A stretch of DNA of 64,000 bases, taken from the NCBI RefSeq assembly GCF_026427715.1, contig NZ_CP107558.1, forward strand, positions 1,153,001 to 1,217,000, written 5' to 3'. The stretch is from Methylocystis sp. MJC1 (lineage in GTDB: Bacteria; Pseudomonadota; Alphaproteobacteria; Rhizobiales; Beijerinckiaceae). Positions 52,450 to 58,087 of the stretch are shown piece by piece. The stretch's first letter is position 1; each line of letters opens with the position of its first letter. Under the pieces are notes generated by a model. That model worked only from the letters and a program-made list of their open reading frames with translations, was not told the origin of the DNA and made no database searches. A program made the translations under genes and the position numbers.

Positions 52450-55158
52450 TTAAGCCCGGCGTCGATGGCGTCCGCCGGGCTTTTCACCGGCCGGACCGCT
52501 TCGCGGCAAGAGGTGATTCAGCGCGGCTGGCGCGCCATGCTGCACGAACAACCCCTCCATGGCCGAGGCGTCGATGGGGCGGCTGAATAGAAAGCCTTGC
52601 GCTTCATCGCAGCCCAATTCTCTCAGGAACTCGGCCTGAGCAGCCGTTTCGATTCCTTCCGCGAGAACCTTCAAATGCAGGCTGTGGCCGAGCGCCACGA
52701 TCGCGCGGGCGATCGCCGCTTCATTCTCTCCGCTCGGAAGATCGGAGACGAATGACCGGTCTATCTTGAGCTTGTTTACGGGCAGGCGCTTTAAATAGGC
52801 CAAAGACGACTGCCCCGTTCCGAAATCGTCAATCGCCAAGGAAACGCCGAATGAGCGAAGGCCGTCGAGGACATTTACGTTCTCTTGGGCTTGCCGCATC
52901 ACATAGGTTTCGGTGATCTCCAGCTCCAGGAATTCCGCCGGCAATCCCGTTTCCGCCAGAATATCCGCTACCGCGCCAACGAGATCCGAGCGCTCGATCT
53001 GAACGCCGGAAATATTCACGGCAATGGGATGCAAGCCCAATCCTTTGTGCATCCATTCCATCGCCTGGCGGCAGGCGGTGCGCAAGGCCCATTCGCCCAG
53101 CTGAATGATCAGCCCGGTTTCCTCGGCGATCGGAATGAATTTATCCGGTGCGATGACGCCGCGTTCGGGGTGGCGCCAGCGCAAGAGCGCCTCCGAGCCG
53201 ACGAGCCTTCCGTCGGCCAGATCGACTTGCGGCTGGTATTGGAGGAACAGCTCGCTTTGTTCCAGCGCCTTGCGCAGCTCGCCTTCCAGGAATTGCCGCT
53301 CCTGCGCCTGATCGGTCAAATGCGATTTGTAGAACAGGAACTTGCCGCGCCCTTCCTCCTTGGCTTGGTACATGGCGAGATCGGCGTTCTTGATCAGCGT
53401 CGCCGCATCTTCGCCGTCGCCGGGGTAACAGCTGACGCCAATCGACGCGCCAACCTCCAGCCGATGGCCTTGCACGACGAAGGGCCTCGACAAGACCGCG
53501 ATAATTTTGGCGGCGACCTCCTGGCCGTCCTCGGGGCCGCGGGCGTTTTGCAGCAGCAGGACGAATTCGTCGCCGCCCAGCCGGGCGATTGTGGCGCCCT
53601 GGCGCAGGTTCTGCACCAACCGTTGCGCAACGGCGCGCAGGAGCGCGTCGCCGACCGGATGGCCCAGGCTGTCGTTGATATATTTGAACCGGTCCAGGTC
53701 GAGAAAGAGCAGACACATCCTTCTCCCGGTCCGCTGCGCCATCTTCATGGCCTGTTCGCAGCGTTCGTTGAACAGCTGGCGGTTGGGAAGATCGGTGAGG
53801 GAGTCGTAGTAGGCCAGGTGGTGGATATGCGCGGCCGAACGCTTCTGCTCAGTGAGGTCGTAAAAGACGCTGATGTAATTCTTCACGCTGCCGCGCTTAT
53901 CGCGCACGGCGGAAATATTCTGCCAAAGTGGGATGCTCTCGCCATCCTTACGGCGATCCCAGATTTCGCCGTGCCATTCGCCTTCGCTCGACAGCTTGGC
54001 CCACAGTTGCTTGAAGAAGGTGGGATCATGCCGCTTCGATTTGAAGATGCTCGTTTTCTTCCCGATGACCTCATCGGGCTCATAACCGAGAATACGGCTG
54101 AAGGCGGGATTGACCCTGATGATCCTGGCCTCTGCGTCGGTGATCACGACGCCGTTCAGGCTGGTTTCAAAAACGCTGGCGGCGAGGCTCAGCTGTTCGT
54201 CGGTTTGCCGCTGGGCCGTGACGTCCTGCAGCGTTCCGTTTGCCCGTAACGGCCTTCCGTTTTCGCCGCCAAGCATTACGCCCCGGAGCTGCACCCATTT
54301 TATCCGGCCGCCCGCCAGAAGCAGACGGCAGCTCGCGCTGAAAAGGCGGCGATCACGGATCGACTCCTGGAAGGCCTCGTCCACCGCCTGGCGGTCGTCT
54401 GGATGGATGAGGGCCAGACAATCCTCATATCGGCGCGGCGGCTCGCTCAACTCCCAGATCTGAAGCAATTCGTCGGACTGTTGGATCACCTCGCCAGTGG
54501 TCAGATCCAGCTCCCAGCGGCCGATTTGGGCGATGCGTTGCGCTTCCTTGAGCTGCCGCTCGCTGTCGAGCAGCGCGTCGTGTTGCTTCTTGATCGCGGT
54601 GATGTCGGTGGCGCAGACGACGGCCCCTTCCTCCTTGCCCTTGGGATCGTGCTGGAGGGTCGCTTCCACCCAATAGAAACGATACTGCCCATCTTTTGCG
54701 AGCAGCCGATGTTCGGCCGCATAGGAGCCCGAGCAGCGCACGCGCTCGAACAAGGGCGAATGCGCCGGCCAGGGCAGGCGGGCAAGCGACTGCTCGAGAC
54801 GGTTTCTTTCCTCCAGCGGCAGCCAGTCGTCGAGAACGCGGCCCGCGATTTCGCCCTCCGGGGCGCGCAGGTCGACGCGGAAGCGTCGATTGACCTGGCT
54901 GATCCGCCCCTCGGGTCCCAGAACGATCATCAAGGCGCTGGATGTGTCCATGACGCGCTGGGTGAAATCAGCCTGATTGGTTTGGCGCCGGTTGGCTTCC
55001 TGCAAGGCTTCCGCCTGCGCCTCCATCATGCGCAGCATCTTGTCCGTCCGCGCGGCGTCGATGCTCATCTGCTCCTGAATGGCGGCGTTGGCCAGGCGAA
55101 GCGCCTCGACTTCGGCGCGCAGACGCTCGGCTTCAGGTGAGAGCGAAAAATCAGGCAT
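52450..55158 (-). CDS. Soluble PAS-PAS-PAS-GGDEF-EAL cyclic-di-GMP protein
   Basis: This 902-residue cytoplasmic signalling protein has an N-terminal coiled coil (about 5-60), then three PAS domains (about 65-193, 203-318, 325-438), GGDEF (about 448-608) and EAL (about 623-870). No membrane helix is visible. The cyclase motif GGDEF is intact at about 528-532, but the inhibitory site reads RQGA, not RxxD, so product inhibition is unlikely. The phosphodiesterase residues appear complete: SEALLRW, VNISG, ELEITET, AIDDFGTG, KLKIDRSF and LAEGIE. The start overlaps the hydrogenase maturation protease gene by 8 bases with GAGGCAGGTGG upstream of ATG 55158. The neighbourhood suggests it responds to the hydrogenase. 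Confidence 0.93.
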   Translation of the reverse strand: MPDFSLSPEAERLRAEVEALRLANAAIQEQMSIDAARTDKMLRMMEAQAEALQEANRRQTNQADFTQRVMDTSSALMIVLGPEGRISQVNRRFRVDLRAPEGEIAGRVLDDWLPLEERNRLEQSLARLPWPAHSPLFERVRCSGSYAAEHRLLAKDGQYRFYWVEATLQHDPKGKEEGAVVCATDITAIKKQHDALLDSERQLKEAQRIAQIGRWELDLTTGEVIQQSDELLQIWELSEPPRRYEDCLALIHPDDRQAVDEAFQESIRDRRLFSASCRLLLAGGRIKWVQLRGVMLGGENGRPLRANGTLQDVTAQRQTDEQLSLAASVFETSLNGVVITDAEARIIRVNPAFSRILGYEPDEVIGKKTSIFKSKRHDPTFFKQLWAKLSSEGEWHGEIWDRRKDGESIPLWQNISAVRDKRGSVKNYISVFYDLTEQKRSAAHIHHLAYYDSLTDLPNRQLFNERCEQAMKMAQRTGRRMCLLFLDLDRFKYINDSLGHPVGDALLRAVAQRLVQNLRQGATIARLGGDEFVLLLQNARGPEDGQEVAAKIIAVLSRPFVVQGHRLEVGASIGVSCYPGDGEDAATLIKNADLAMYQAKEEGRGKFLFYKSHLTDQAQERQFLEGELRKALEQSELFLQYQPQVDLADGRLVGSEALLRWRHPERGVIAPDKFIPIAEETGLIIQLGEWALRTACRQAMEWMHKGLGLHPIAVNISGVQIERSDLVGAVADILAETGLPAEFLELEITETYVMRQAQENVNVLDGLRSFGVSLAIDDFGTGQSSLAYLKRLPVNKLKIDRSFVSDLPSGENEAAIARAIVALGHSLHLKVLAEGIETAAQAEFLRELGCDEAQGFLFSRPIDASAMEGLFVQHGAPAALNHLLPRSGPAGEKPGGRHRRRA
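52452..52482 (+). terminator. purA terminator overlapping the convergent gene
   Basis: AAGCCCGGC and GCCGGGCTT form a 9-base stem around 13 bases, followed by TT. It starts 5 bases after the purA stop and overlaps the C-terminal codons of the GGDEF-EAL gene on the other strand. Confidence 0.7.
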
Positions 55159-55630
55159 GGCCACCTGCCTCGAAATAGCGTCCGAGAAACGCTGTGACCT
55201 CGTCGACGGCGCGCGTTACCGGCTGAGAAAGTCCGATGTGAAATGGCGTGAGGGTCTCGACTTCCGCCCCGATGATCTCGATGGCCGGCATCGTCTCGGG
55301 AAGCGCGGCGAGCGCGCGCAGGACATAGCCGAGGCCGAGGCCGTGAGCCGCCGGCGTGGCTTCTTCCACGACCGAGGCCAGGGAGGGCCGATGCACGCGC
55401 CCCGGGCTCCCTGCGGGCGCCAGCGCGTCGACGATGACGACTTCGTCGCAGTCTTGAAACAGCGCCAACGCCGCTGGGCCGGGGACGCCTGCTTCCGTCA
55501 GGCGCAGGCTGGCCGGGCGCTTGCGCGCCGCAAGTCGTTCATAGACAGCCGGGCCGAAGCCGTCGTCGCCATGCAGCGGATTGCCAAAGCAGACGATATG
55601 GCGCCGCCTCGTGAAAGGGCTTTCATTCAT
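55151..55630 (-). CDS. [NiFe]-hydrogenase maturation protease
   Basis: This endopeptidase of 159 residues (HyaD/HupD/HoxW family) removes the C-terminal peptide of the large subunit after nickel insertion. The start is IVCFGNPLHGDDGFGPAVYE with the metal-binding Asp/Glu region. DEVVIVDALAPAGSPG near 68-83 carries the second acid, and the His of PAAHGLGLGYVLR near 104 is in the family position. Its ATG overlaps the large-subunit stop (ATGA), and its own end overlaps the GGDEF-EAL gene. The cognate large subunit has a 12-residue tail to cleave, consistent with function. Confidence 0.92.
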   Translation of the reverse strand: MNESPFTRRRHIVCFGNPLHGDDGFGPAVYERLAARKRPASLRLTEAGVPGPAALALFQDCDEVVIVDALAPAGSPGRVHRPSLASVVEEATPAAHGLGLGYVLRALAALPETMPAIEIIGAEVETLTPFHIGLSQPVTRAVDEVTAFLGRYFEAGGHA

Positions 55631-57144
55631 GCGCCGAAATGAACCTTCCTTCCGGTGTCCAGCATATGGACCGTGCAAACGAGGCAAGGGTCGTGGGATC
55701 GGATGATATGACCGATCTCGACGGGATCGTCAGGGTCGCGCACCTCGACGCCGACCAGGCTCTGTTCCCAATGGCCGGGCTGGCCGGCGCTGTCGCGCGG
55801 CGAAGCGTTCCAGGCGGTCGGCGTGACGATTTGATATTTCTCGATGACGCCGTCCCTGATCTTGATCCAATGGCCGAGCGCGCCGCGCGCCGCCATGATC
55901 AGGCCGTAGCCGTCGCCATCTGATTCATTGGCGGGCGGAACGAAATGCTCGCCATCGAGATCGGCGGCAAGTTGGTCGAGCATGCGCCGCGCATGCAGGA
56001 ATTCATGGGCGATGCGCCGCGCCCGCGCGAATTGCCGCAACCAGGCGCCGCCGCCTTCCAATGCGTTGAGCGAGGCGATCAGGGGATCGCCGCCGATCAG
56101 CAATTCGGCGAGCGGGCCCGTCTGGACGACCTTGTCGCCATAGCGCGGCGCCTTGGACCATGTGTAGCGATCGCCGCCGGGCTCGTAATTGGGGATGGTT
56201 TCGCCGTTCCATGGATGGCGGCCGCCTTCATAGTGCCGGAACCAGGAATGGCGCACATGCTCGTTGATCTGCGTCTGATCGAGCGGCGCGATCGCCCCCG
56301 TTTCGCCGTCGTAAAAGCCCGACGCCAGGAGAGTGGCGTCGGCGTCGATCGTCGAAGGATCGCGCCACGCTCCATAGCTCAACATATGTTTGGCGCCCGC
56401 CGCGGAGCGATGCAGCCCCAACGCGCGCACGCAGCGGCTGAGCATGCCGAGCGCGCTCGCCGCATGGGCGGGCGCGTCGAGCCAGGCGAAATAGTCCTCC
56501 GCCTTGTCGAGCGCCAGCCAGCGCTCGAGCGGCGCGCCGATGATGCGCTGCTCATACCAGCGTTGCGCTTCGTCCAGCACGGCGCGGCAGGCGGAAATCC
56601 GGCGCAGATCGGCCGGAAGCGTCACGCCGCCGGGGGCCATGTAGGAGGAGTGCGGCCACTGCCCGCCGAAATGCGCCACGATCTGCACGACCTTCCGCGT
56701 CACCGCGAGGGTCTCGAGATAGATCGCTCCGCGAAACGGCTCGAAGGCCGCCATCATTTCGTCGAACCAGGGTTCGGCGGCGTAGCGTGGATTGCAGAAG
56801 TCGGGCGTGAAGAACAGGAAGGTCTGGCGCAGGTCGTTCTGAATGCCTTCCGCCATCAGGCAGAGATTGCGGATGCGCGTGGCGTTGGGCGGCGGAGCCG
56901 CGCTCCAGGCGCGCTCCAAAGCGAGCGCAGACGAATAGAGATGCGCCGTTCCGCAAATGCCGCAGACGCGCGGCGTGATCACAAGGGCGTCGCGCGGCGC
57001 CCGGCCGATGAGAATCTGCTCGAAGCCACGGTACATCGTGCCGATGGTGCGGGCTTCCGCCACCACGCTATCGTCCAGAGTCACGGCGAGTTCGAGATCG
57101 CCCTCGACGCGATTGAGGCTGACATTGAGCTCGACGCGCGCCAT
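55627..57144 (-). CDS. [NiFe]-hydrogenase large subunit (group 2 type)
   Basis: This is the catalytic subunit with the Ni-Fe(CN)2CO centre, 505 residues. The L1 motif RVCGICGTAH places Cys61 and Cys64, and L2 is DPCLVCTVH with Cys487, Cys490 and His493. Twelve residues (MLDTGRKVHFGA) follow His493 and form the peptide removed by the protease encoded next. Regulatory HupV/HoxC subunits lack such a tail, so this is not a standard HupUV sensor. The overall pattern and the signal-less small subunit point to group 2, near 2a/2c of the HydDB scheme. It lies 1 base after the small-subunit stop. Fe-S biogenesis and hyp genes are not in the window. Confidence 0.95.
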   Translation of the reverse strand: MARVELNVSLNRVEGDLELAVTLDDSVVAEARTIGTMYRGFEQILIGRAPRDALVITPRVCGICGTAHLYSSALALERAWSAAPPPNATRIRNLCLMAEGIQNDLRQTFLFFTPDFCNPRYAAEPWFDEMMAAFEPFRGAIYLETLAVTRKVVQIVAHFGGQWPHSSYMAPGGVTLPADLRRISACRAVLDEAQRWYEQRIIGAPLERWLALDKAEDYFAWLDAPAHAASALGMLSRCVRALGLHRSAAGAKHMLSYGAWRDPSTIDADATLLASGFYDGETGAIAPLDQTQINEHVRHSWFRHYEGGRHPWNGETIPNYEPGGDRYTWSKAPRYGDKVVQTGPLAELLIGGDPLIASLNALEGGGAWLRQFARARRIAHEFLHARRMLDQLAADLDGEHFVPPANESDGDGYGLIMAARGALGHWIKIRDGVIEKYQIVTPTAWNASPRDSAGQPGHWEQSLVGVEVRDPDDPVEIGHIIRSHDPCLVCTVHMLDTGRKVHFGA

Positions 57145-57145
57145 G

Positions 57146-58087
57146 TCAGACGTCCATCTTCTTGTCCCGGACGCGCGCGGGCGCGGCGGCGCGGGCGAGA
57201 TTCTTATAAGCCATGTAGCGGGCGCGCTCGACGCCGACAGGCAGGCGCAGCGGAATGTCGCCGATCTTCGCCGTTGCGAAGAGGTCCGTTTCGCGGGGGA
57301 AATTGGGCGCCGTGCAGCCGAAGCAGGGGACGCCCGCCCGCGTCTTGCTGTTGACGCCGTTCCAAAGATCGCTGTTGCAGACCGCCTGGGTCAGCGGGCC
57401 CTGGCAGCCGAGATTGTAGAACAGGCAGGCGCGGCCGCCGAGCTCCAAGTCCTCAACGTCGTATTCGTGGTATTCGTTCCGCGTACAGCCTTGGTGCGCC
57501 AAAGTGCTGAAAAAGGCGCTCGGCCGGTTCAGCGCATCGAGGGCGAGCGGCAGGTCCTGGGCAATCGCCGCCAGCGTCTGGGTCATGGCGTGGGGATGCG
57601 CCGGGCAACCGGCGATATTGATGACGGGCAGGCCCGAACCTGCGCGCCAGTCCGCGGGGAAAAGGCCGCCCGGCGTCTCCCGGTCGAATTGCAGGCCGAT
57701 GCAATCGGCGGGGTTGGGGCTCGCCGCGTGGACGCCGCCGAAACTGGCGCAAGTGCCCATGGCGACAACGAAATTCGCGCGCTGGGCGAGCGCGCGCGCG
57801 ATCTCCATGCGCGCCCGGCCCCGGTAGCTGTCGAAAAGGCCGGTGCCGCGCGGGGCGGTGATGATGCTGCCCTCGACGCACAGGATGTCGAGCTTTTGGA
57901 CGCCCGACGCAATGCCGTCGATCAGCGCGTCATAACGCTTCATCGGCGCATGCGAGATGGAGGGATGCCAGAGCAGCTCGATCCCGCAGGAGGCGAAAAG
58001 CTGCTCGAAGCTCGGGGCTTCAGCGCTCAGAATCGCAAGCGAATCCCCGCCGCAAGCCCCGGTCTGCAACCAGAACAAGGTTTTCAC
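57146..58087 (-). CDS. [NiFe]-hydrogenase small subunit, cytoplasmic, with unusual proximal-cluster residue
   Basis: This is the Fe-S electron-transfer subunit, 313 residues from GTG 58087, which has AAAGGGG upstream. It starts directly with KTLFWLQTGACGGDSLAIL and so has no Tat signal; the complex should stay in the cytoplasm. The first proximal-cluster motif is CGGD (Cys12, Asp15) where most hydrogenases have CxxC; cyanobacterial uptake HupS has CxxN there. Other Fe-S motifs are VAMGTCASFGG, NIAGCPAHPHAM, HQGCTRNEYHEY, GCQGPLTQAVCN and GVPCFGCTAPNFP, all present. The C-terminal membrane anchor of group 1 enzymes is absent. It heads the unit small-large-protease-GGDEF/EAL. The YkgJ-type gene ends 218 bases upstream. 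Confidence 0.94.
   Translation of the reverse strand: MKTLFWLQTGACGGDSLAILSAEAPSFEQLFASCGIELLWHPSISHAPMKRYDALIDGIASGVQKLDILCVEGSIITAPRGTGLFDSYRGRARMEIARALAQRANFVVAMGTCASFGGVHAASPNPADCIGLQFDRETPGGLFPADWRAGSGLPVINIAGCPAHPHAMTQTLAAIAQDLPLALDALNRPSAFFSTLAHQGCTRNEYHEYDVEDLELGGRACLFYNLGCQGPLTQAVCNSDLWNGVNSKTRAGVPCFGCTAPNFPRETDLFATAKIGDIPLRLPVGVERARYMAYKNLARAAAPARVRDKKMDV

Follow-up and report, generated by a model that had tools for sequence, protein, structure and literature searches.

We analysed a four-gene cassette in a 64,000-nucleotide stretch of Methylocystis sp. MJC1 (contig NZ_CP107558.1, positions 1,153,001 to 1,217,000 of the forward strand; hereafter, the window). The cassette encodes the two subunits of a [NiFe]-hydrogenase, a maturation protease and a signalling partner carrying PAS, GGDEF and EAL domains (Table 1), and on sequence grounds it is probably a cytoplasmic H2 sensor with a co-encoded synthase/phosphodiesterase of cyclic di-GMP (c-di-GMP). 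An earlier note on this DNA had placed the four genes in one tight unit, joined by a 1-base gap, a 4-base overlap and an 8-base overlap. Coordinates and Pfam domains agree with this placement, and the junctions proved exact when read base by base: TGA-C-ATG between the subunit genes, ATGA between the large subunit and protease genes, and an 8-base overlap shared by the protease stop and the partner ATG. The first PAS domain of the partner was recognised by alignment and structure modelling rather than by the Pfam matches. The small subunit begins VKTLFWLQTGACGGD (VKTLFWLQTG) and, as judged by eye on this N-terminus, indeed lacks a twin-arginine translocation (Tat) leader. No cytochrome b or other electron-acceptor gene, and no gene for the NifU-Rieske protein HucE, was found within the window cassette; the group 1 uptake features (Tat leader, cytochrome b) are thus missing from it, and cytochrome b occurs only at a separate HupSL locus. 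A PHROGs scan added nothing.

Table 1. Features of the hydrogenase cassette, in window coordinates
Feature	Position	Strand	Details
Hydrogenase small subunit	57146..58087	-	GTG start; PF01058 + PF14720
Small-subunit proximal cluster	57146..58087	-	C12, D15 (Cys replaced), C113, C161
Small-subunit distal cluster	57146..58087	-	H198, C201, C221, C228
Small-subunit medial cluster	57146..58087	-	C237, C255, C258
Hydrogenase large subunit	55627..57144	-	PF00374; CGIC...DPCLVCTVH; residues I63, F111
Large-subunit C-terminal tail, 12 residues, MLDTGRKVHFGA	55630..55665	-	after last His; presumed cleaved at maturation
Hydrogenase maturation protease, HycI/HyaD family	55151..55630	-	PF01750; motif GNPLHGDDGFG
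Signalling partner PAS-PAS-PAS-GGDEF-EAL	52450..55158	-	902 aa from ATG; PF08447, PF13426, PF00990, PF00563
Partner N-terminal module	54556..55140	-	66-residue helix, then PAS1; alignment + structure model
GGDEF domain of partner	53344..53814	-	GGDEF intact; product-inhibition site (I-site) RxxD = RQGA
EAL domain of partner	52576..53280	-	motifs EALLR, DDFGTG, AEGIE

Group 2c loci and their signalling genes

The cassette is another case of the already named group 2c, and the H2-to-c-di-GMP proposal itself is not new. In the excerpts of the cited papers to which this text refers throughout, the HydDB entry for 2c reads 'Diguanylate cyclase-linked (putative)', with possible H2 sensing and control via cyclic di-GMP production (PMC5037454), a Thiomargarita paper citing Greening et al. 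carries the same putative role (PMC4853749), and the group is also mentioned in PMC12810054. These sources have in common with the window the cytosolic hydrogenase beside a diguanylate cyclase/phosphodiesterase, the CLVCTVH motif and the proposed role, and members are reported there from methylotrophic bacteria. The L2 motif of 2c is given as SFDxCLVCTVH (PMC4853749); the window has a His variant, SHDPCLVCTVH, shared with a Thiomargarita sequence filed under 2c in that paper. The link of 2c to signalling named by the earlier note applies to the window, with its GGDEF/EAL gene and its place in a 2c clade, but had already been published as putative (PMC5037454, PMC4853749). Beyond the published picture, the present analysis would add output exchange, a Rieske link and a ligand pattern: kinases occur in half of the relatives found here, and the excerpted descriptions mention neither Rieske domains nor Asp/Glu at the proximal position. 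Kinase or Rieske partners of 2c were the subject of no paper found in the open-access literature, which leaves most subscription papers outside its coverage.

Relatives were collected by scanning one genome per species and keeping the best 80 of 277 relative-encoding stretches. Close relatives among these 80 were L029-L059 and L100 (32 loci); further scans added L111 and L142-L148 (8), bringing the total, window included, to 41 distinct 2c loci. L112, on the same contig as L031, was left out of the locus counts, as were the short duplicates L009-L011, L113-L119 and L139, and two contigs of one metagenome-assembled genome (MAG), L030 and L100, count as two loci. The 2c large subunits formed their own clade (37 rows, support of 95 in the Shimodaira-Hasegawa-like approximate likelihood ratio test, SH-aLRT) apart from Huc-like and HupV-like rows. 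In a careful tree of 44 rows, outside which stood the broken L058 and L059 and the fragment L100, 38 2c rows were again separated (support 97/94) from three Huc-like and three HupV rows. Clustering with an uptake enzyme, which the earlier note had named as a result that would speak against its proposal, was not seen for the enzyme of this genome: the window large subunit falls apart from its own HupL.

Of the 38 loci that extend far enough, 37 have a signalling gene as the last gene of the cassette, encoded on the same strand, so the co-conservation that the earlier note had asked for in relatives is present; three of the 41 loci stop before the partner (L030, L032, L035). In L037 the partner gene is cut inside and its output is unreadable. 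The 36 readable outputs comprise 16 GGDEF-EAL proteins, two with GGDEF only (L143, L144) and 18 kinases, typed by Pfam for 15 partners and by motifs for the other 21; L142 was counted as GGDEF-EAL from Pfam although the EAL motif missed it, and for the kinases L041 and L059, whose genes are frameshifted, the longer piece was read. The earlier note's choice of c-di-GMP as output hence stands for the window partner but not as the conserved output, a histidine kinase taking its place in 18/36 readable loci. On the large-subunit tree (33 labelled rows) output type changed at least four times. Pfam found no PAS in the L055 kinase, and no protease was detected ahead of the partner in L148. The I-site reads RQGA in both the window and L029, RxxD is kept in 14 of 18 GGDEF-bearing partners, and the GGDEF domains of L054 and L056 lack the I-site Arg.

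The flanking genes tested are not kept across 2c loci. The CxxCxxCC and purA genes that adjoin the window cassette match in only one of them (tblastn, E<=1e-4), L029, its nearest Methylocystis relative; the conserved unit is therefore the four genes, and a role for either neighbour was rejected. Some loci show features of their own. Frameshifts, from decay or sequencing error, split the partner in L041 (Enterovibrio nigricans), the hydrogenase genes and protease in L058 (Enterovibrio coralii), and the large subunit, protease and partner in L059 (a Photobacterium). HupE and HypF genes precede the cassette in L041, as do similar-sized genes in the other Vibrionaceae loci L042-L044, L047, L049, L051 and L057. 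A second GGDEF-EAL-like gene, divergently oriented, lies upstream of the cassette in a Methylocystis MAG (L030:1700-3646). In one locus of the outer 2c clade (L146:9521-11689), a gene that looks receiver-like by eye and one for an HD-domain protein come after the partner kinase; they may provide another route to c-di-GMP.

The host genome (4.54 Mb, 4 contigs, rated 100% complete) holds 12 EAL domains. Its separate HupSL uptake hydrogenase comes with its own cytochrome b (PF01292), HypD, HypF and a HypE-like gene, and a third, divergent large subunit, group 3-like by eye, lies at C1:704593; a HupUV-like large subunit did not appear among the matches that the large-subunit searches gave in this genome. 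The window large subunit is 97% identical to that of Methylocystis sp. Sn-Cys. The cassette hydrogenase is rare, being found in 3 of 149 genomes of the family (78-100% identity) and in 7 of 398 genomes of the phylum at >600 bits.

Metal ligands, gas gate and C-terminal tail

Ligand positions were compared over 39 2c alignment rows (including L112, the duplicate of L031), ten Huc-like rows and rows of group 2b (HupUV/HoxBC), whose 76 large-subunit rows hold at least one duplicate (L022/L138). The residues of the small subunit were assigned to clusters following what we take to be the known hydrogenase pattern. All 39 2c rows have an acidic residue at position 15 (34 Asp, 5 Glu), against Cys in all 54 2b rows with a letter there and Asn in 10/10 Huc-like rows. 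Lys occupies position 248 in 39/39 2c rows and Cys does so in 54/55 2b rows, the single exception resembling a small subunit of group 1. At position 198, every 2c row has His and all ten Huc-like rows Gln. The window small subunit has Asp15, His198 and Lys248. Compared with H2-sensing HupU, then, a Cys of the proximal cluster is replaced by Asp/Glu and the fourth Cys of the medial cluster is missing. From this pattern we infer a carboxylate or an open site at the proximal cluster of 2c enzymes and a [3Fe-4S] medial cluster. The group 1h enzyme has a carboxylate-ligated proximal cluster, and Huc has three [3Fe-4S] clusters. The regulatory hydrogenase (RH) of Ralstonia is reported to contain three [4Fe-4S] clusters, of which the distal is ligated by one His and three Cys (PMC5665086).

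In the large subunit, position 63 is Ile in all 2c (39/39), Huc-like (10/10) and 2b (76/76) rows. Position 111 varies: 2c rows have Phe (19) or Met (20), 2b rows always Phe (76/76), and Huc-like rows (10/10), like the genome's own HupL, have Leu. Both are presumably the gas-gate residues of RH. The 12 residues that follow DPCLVCTVH have no counterpart in any 2b-like locus compared (L019-L028, L060-L099, L101-L108; tail 0), which upholds the contrast drawn by the earlier note: unlike HupUV/HoxBC, this enzyme keeps a cleavable tail and its own protease. The 2c large subunit combines sensor-like bulky gas-gate residues with a cleavable tail.

Group 2b, with HupT/HoxJ as partner, shares with 2c the cytosolic location, a co-encoded helix-PAS signalling partner and a bulky gate (Ile, Phe). 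It differs in lacking a tail and in having Cys15, Cys248 and Gln in L1, against Asp/Glu15, Lys248 and, in 34/39 rows, His in L1 for the tailed 2c enzymes. A strict HupUV-type regulatory hydrogenase was ruled out by tail, ligands and tree. Group 2a Huc has the nearest solved structures for both subunits, a tail, a protease and a Rieske link in common with 2c, but Huc-like loci carry Asn15, Gln198 and Leu at the second gate position where 2c has Asp/Glu15, His198 and Phe/Met; Huc itself was ruled out, Asn15 and Gln198 being absent from the window small subunit. Huc-like hydrogenases are also carried by seven genomes of the same family (L012-L018), and in two loci related to these (L149, L150) two small genes lie between large subunit and protease, of which the one tested had no Pfam match.

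Helix-PAS module, HupT and Rieske domains

GGDEF-EAL and kinase partners can be aligned with one another over their first 200 residues; the 26 rows are 21-85% identical to that of the window and share 9 invariant columns. A profile of this region had a single match in its own genome at E<=1e-6, and it matched L111 and L142, both outside the profile, at 249 and 165 bits. An AlphaFold model shows a 66-residue helix followed by a PAS fold (mean predicted local distance difference test score, pLDDT, 88.2; predicted template modelling score, pTM, 0.64), and Foldseek matched it to generic PAS structures including LOV, NifL, FixL and DosP, heme and flavin PAS domains among them. By alignment and model, what the partners conserve is a helix-PAS module at their N-terminus; its signal is strong within the core clade and weak or undetected in an outer clade of seven loci (L055, L143-L148).

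We compared the module with HupT, using profile A1 for the module and A3 and A4 for HupT; G000 denotes the window genome. In each of eight chosen HupUV genomes the top A1 match outside 2c cassettes was a kinase within 18 kb of HupV, although in G501 the runner-up was almost equal to it. Six of these eight kinases were fetched and all carry MASLG(R/K)LVAGVA, a motif found slightly altered in the 2c partners L042 and L058. Among 48 HupV-type loci (L060-L108 without L100), A1 matched in 42 and six had no match; in 36 of the 42 the match lies no more than 300 bases past HupV. Over 398 genomes, with at most seven candidates scored per genome, A1 gave 21 matches at E<=1e-12, 14 of them hydrogenase-linked: two beside 2c and 12 within 18 kb of HupV (11 placed by search coordinates, one checked individually). 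In profile-profile comparison, module and HupT aligned at E 4e-20 (158 columns), against 2e-13 for module and PAS3, 7e-10 for HupT and PAS3 and 1.5e-7 for module and PAS2. For 25 of 26 partners the top-scoring domain of a 24-row HupT profile fell within the module; scores were 45-52 bits for Vibrionaceae, and 21 and 13 bits for the Methylocystis relatives L029 and L100. The module is probably related to the HupT sensor region; in HoxJ, the PAS region is the contact site with HoxBC. The best HupT-profile match of the window genome is an NtrB-like two-PAS kinase (L182, G000:C1:2367000-2376000). Nearby are an NtrC-like regulator and genes that by eye resemble those for gas-vesicle GvpN and GvpF/L.

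A Rieske domain accompanies the partner in 8 of 36 readable loci. In seven it is fused to the partner N-terminus (L040, L045, L046, L048, L054, L056, L142), and in the SAR324 locus L039 a separate 112-residue Rieske gene stands between protease and partner. Pfam found PF00355 in all four cases tested (L039, L045, L054, L142); L040, L046, L048 and L056, whose rows helped to build the module profile, were assigned from alignment and motif. All eight show the four-ligand motif CxH...CxxH, which the first 200 residues of every other partner lack, and Rieske presence changed at least three times on the tree. The earlier note's statement that there is no electron acceptor is accordingly true of the window copy but fails for the family, where the Rieske domain is a candidate first electron acceptor in 8/36 loci. 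In group 2a, HucE, a NifU-Rieske protein, is required for H2 uptake and is the proposed acceptor (PMC6883350), and the RH of Ralstonia is an H2-sensing hydrogenase tightly bound to a kinase; the cytoplasmic electron acceptor of RH is described as unknown (PMC5665086).

H2 sensing and its alternatives

How might the cassette work as a sensor? The helix-PAS module would dock onto the hydrogenase; H2 splitting at the [NiFe] site would shift the redox state of the Fe-S chain, which could reach the docked PAS as electrons or as a conformational change, and the PAS would then reset the coiled coil and hence the balance of GGDEF and EAL. H2-controlled c-di-GMP turnover is expected because the EAL motifs are intact and the product-inhibition site of GGDEF is altered. 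In relatives, the same sensor front end would drive histidine kinases or GGDEF alone, and because they attach these to the same sensor, the front end appears to work with exchangeable outputs; a Rieske domain may take the first electrons in 8/36 loci. More tentatively, and with doubt prevailing, group 2c as a whole could be an exchangeable, electron-wired H2-sensor platform, running from a carboxylate-ligated proximal cluster, in some members via Rieske, into the helix-PAS module and on to any output.

Several observations weigh against H2 sensing through a shared module. Half of the partners are not c-di-GMP enzymes, L052 (Acidobacteriota) has no signalling gene in 2.9 kb past the protease, and the window partner has no Rieske domain. 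In the outer clade the module matches at only 30-35 bits in L143, L144, L146 and L148, and no match was found in L055, L145 and L147. No cofactor signature (heme or LOV-cysteine) was seen by eye in PAS1, and sequence and fold searches were generic. Seven of the 21 A1 matches are large proteins (open frames of 869-1280 aa) with no hydrogenase within the fetched 4-16 kb, and four of them outscore every HupT. Reciprocal matching of module and HupT held forward in 8/8 chosen genomes but not in reverse: A3 did not match the window module in G000 even at E<=10 and A4 did not at E<=1; A4 gave only lower-ranked module matches in G089 (2e-4) and G100 (3.9e-6), and the G160 module was not among the matches listed. 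Because these genome-wide A3 and A4 searches miss the window module, we grade the HupT link only as probable. The open-access literature searched, with subscription papers mostly outside its coverage, contained no experiment on 2c.

Information could also run from the signalling protein to the enzyme, the hydrogenase being a metabolic uptake enzyme that the GGDEF-EAL protein tunes or to whose electron flow it simply responds. Both subunits are closest to the 'Hydrogenase-2' chains of 7utd/7uur/7uus, which we take to be the respiratory Huc of Mycobacterium, and the tail, protease and Fe-S ligands are as in a turnover enzyme; some 2c loci, moreover, bear a Rieske domain, and Huc has HucE as its proposed acceptor (PMC6883350). 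We nevertheless consider this unlikely, since the window cassette is without an acceptor or membrane gene, the signalling protein is linked in 37/38 loci, Rieske is fused to it in 7/8 cases, and the gas gate is of the H2-sensor type. It is less likely still that the partner is itself a redox or O2 sensor for which the hydrogenase serves as reductant, so that the signal would be the redox state of the cell rather than H2. Its three PAS domains would suit such a role, as might the Rieske centres of some relatives through general redox sensing, yet neither a heme nor a LOV-cysteine signature was apparent in the module by eye; with matches to generic PAS, heme and flavin PAS included, the fold search is neutral here. 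Mere operon convenience, with no direct functional contact between hydrogenase and partner, strikes us as very improbable: neighbours in operons often make no physical contact, and L052 does without a partner, but the core clade keeps the module despite at least four changes of output across the tree, and the tested flanking genes vary freely.

If group 2c is an electron-wired platform of the kind outlined above, the Rieske-bearing members would show how an H2-sensing hydrogenase communicates with its partner. In a sensor family with swappable outputs, some with a built-in Rieske domain, the choice between electron transfer and conformational change becomes directly testable. For methanotrophs, such a sensor would also tie H2 to c-di-GMP and thereby, perhaps, to motility or biofilm formation.

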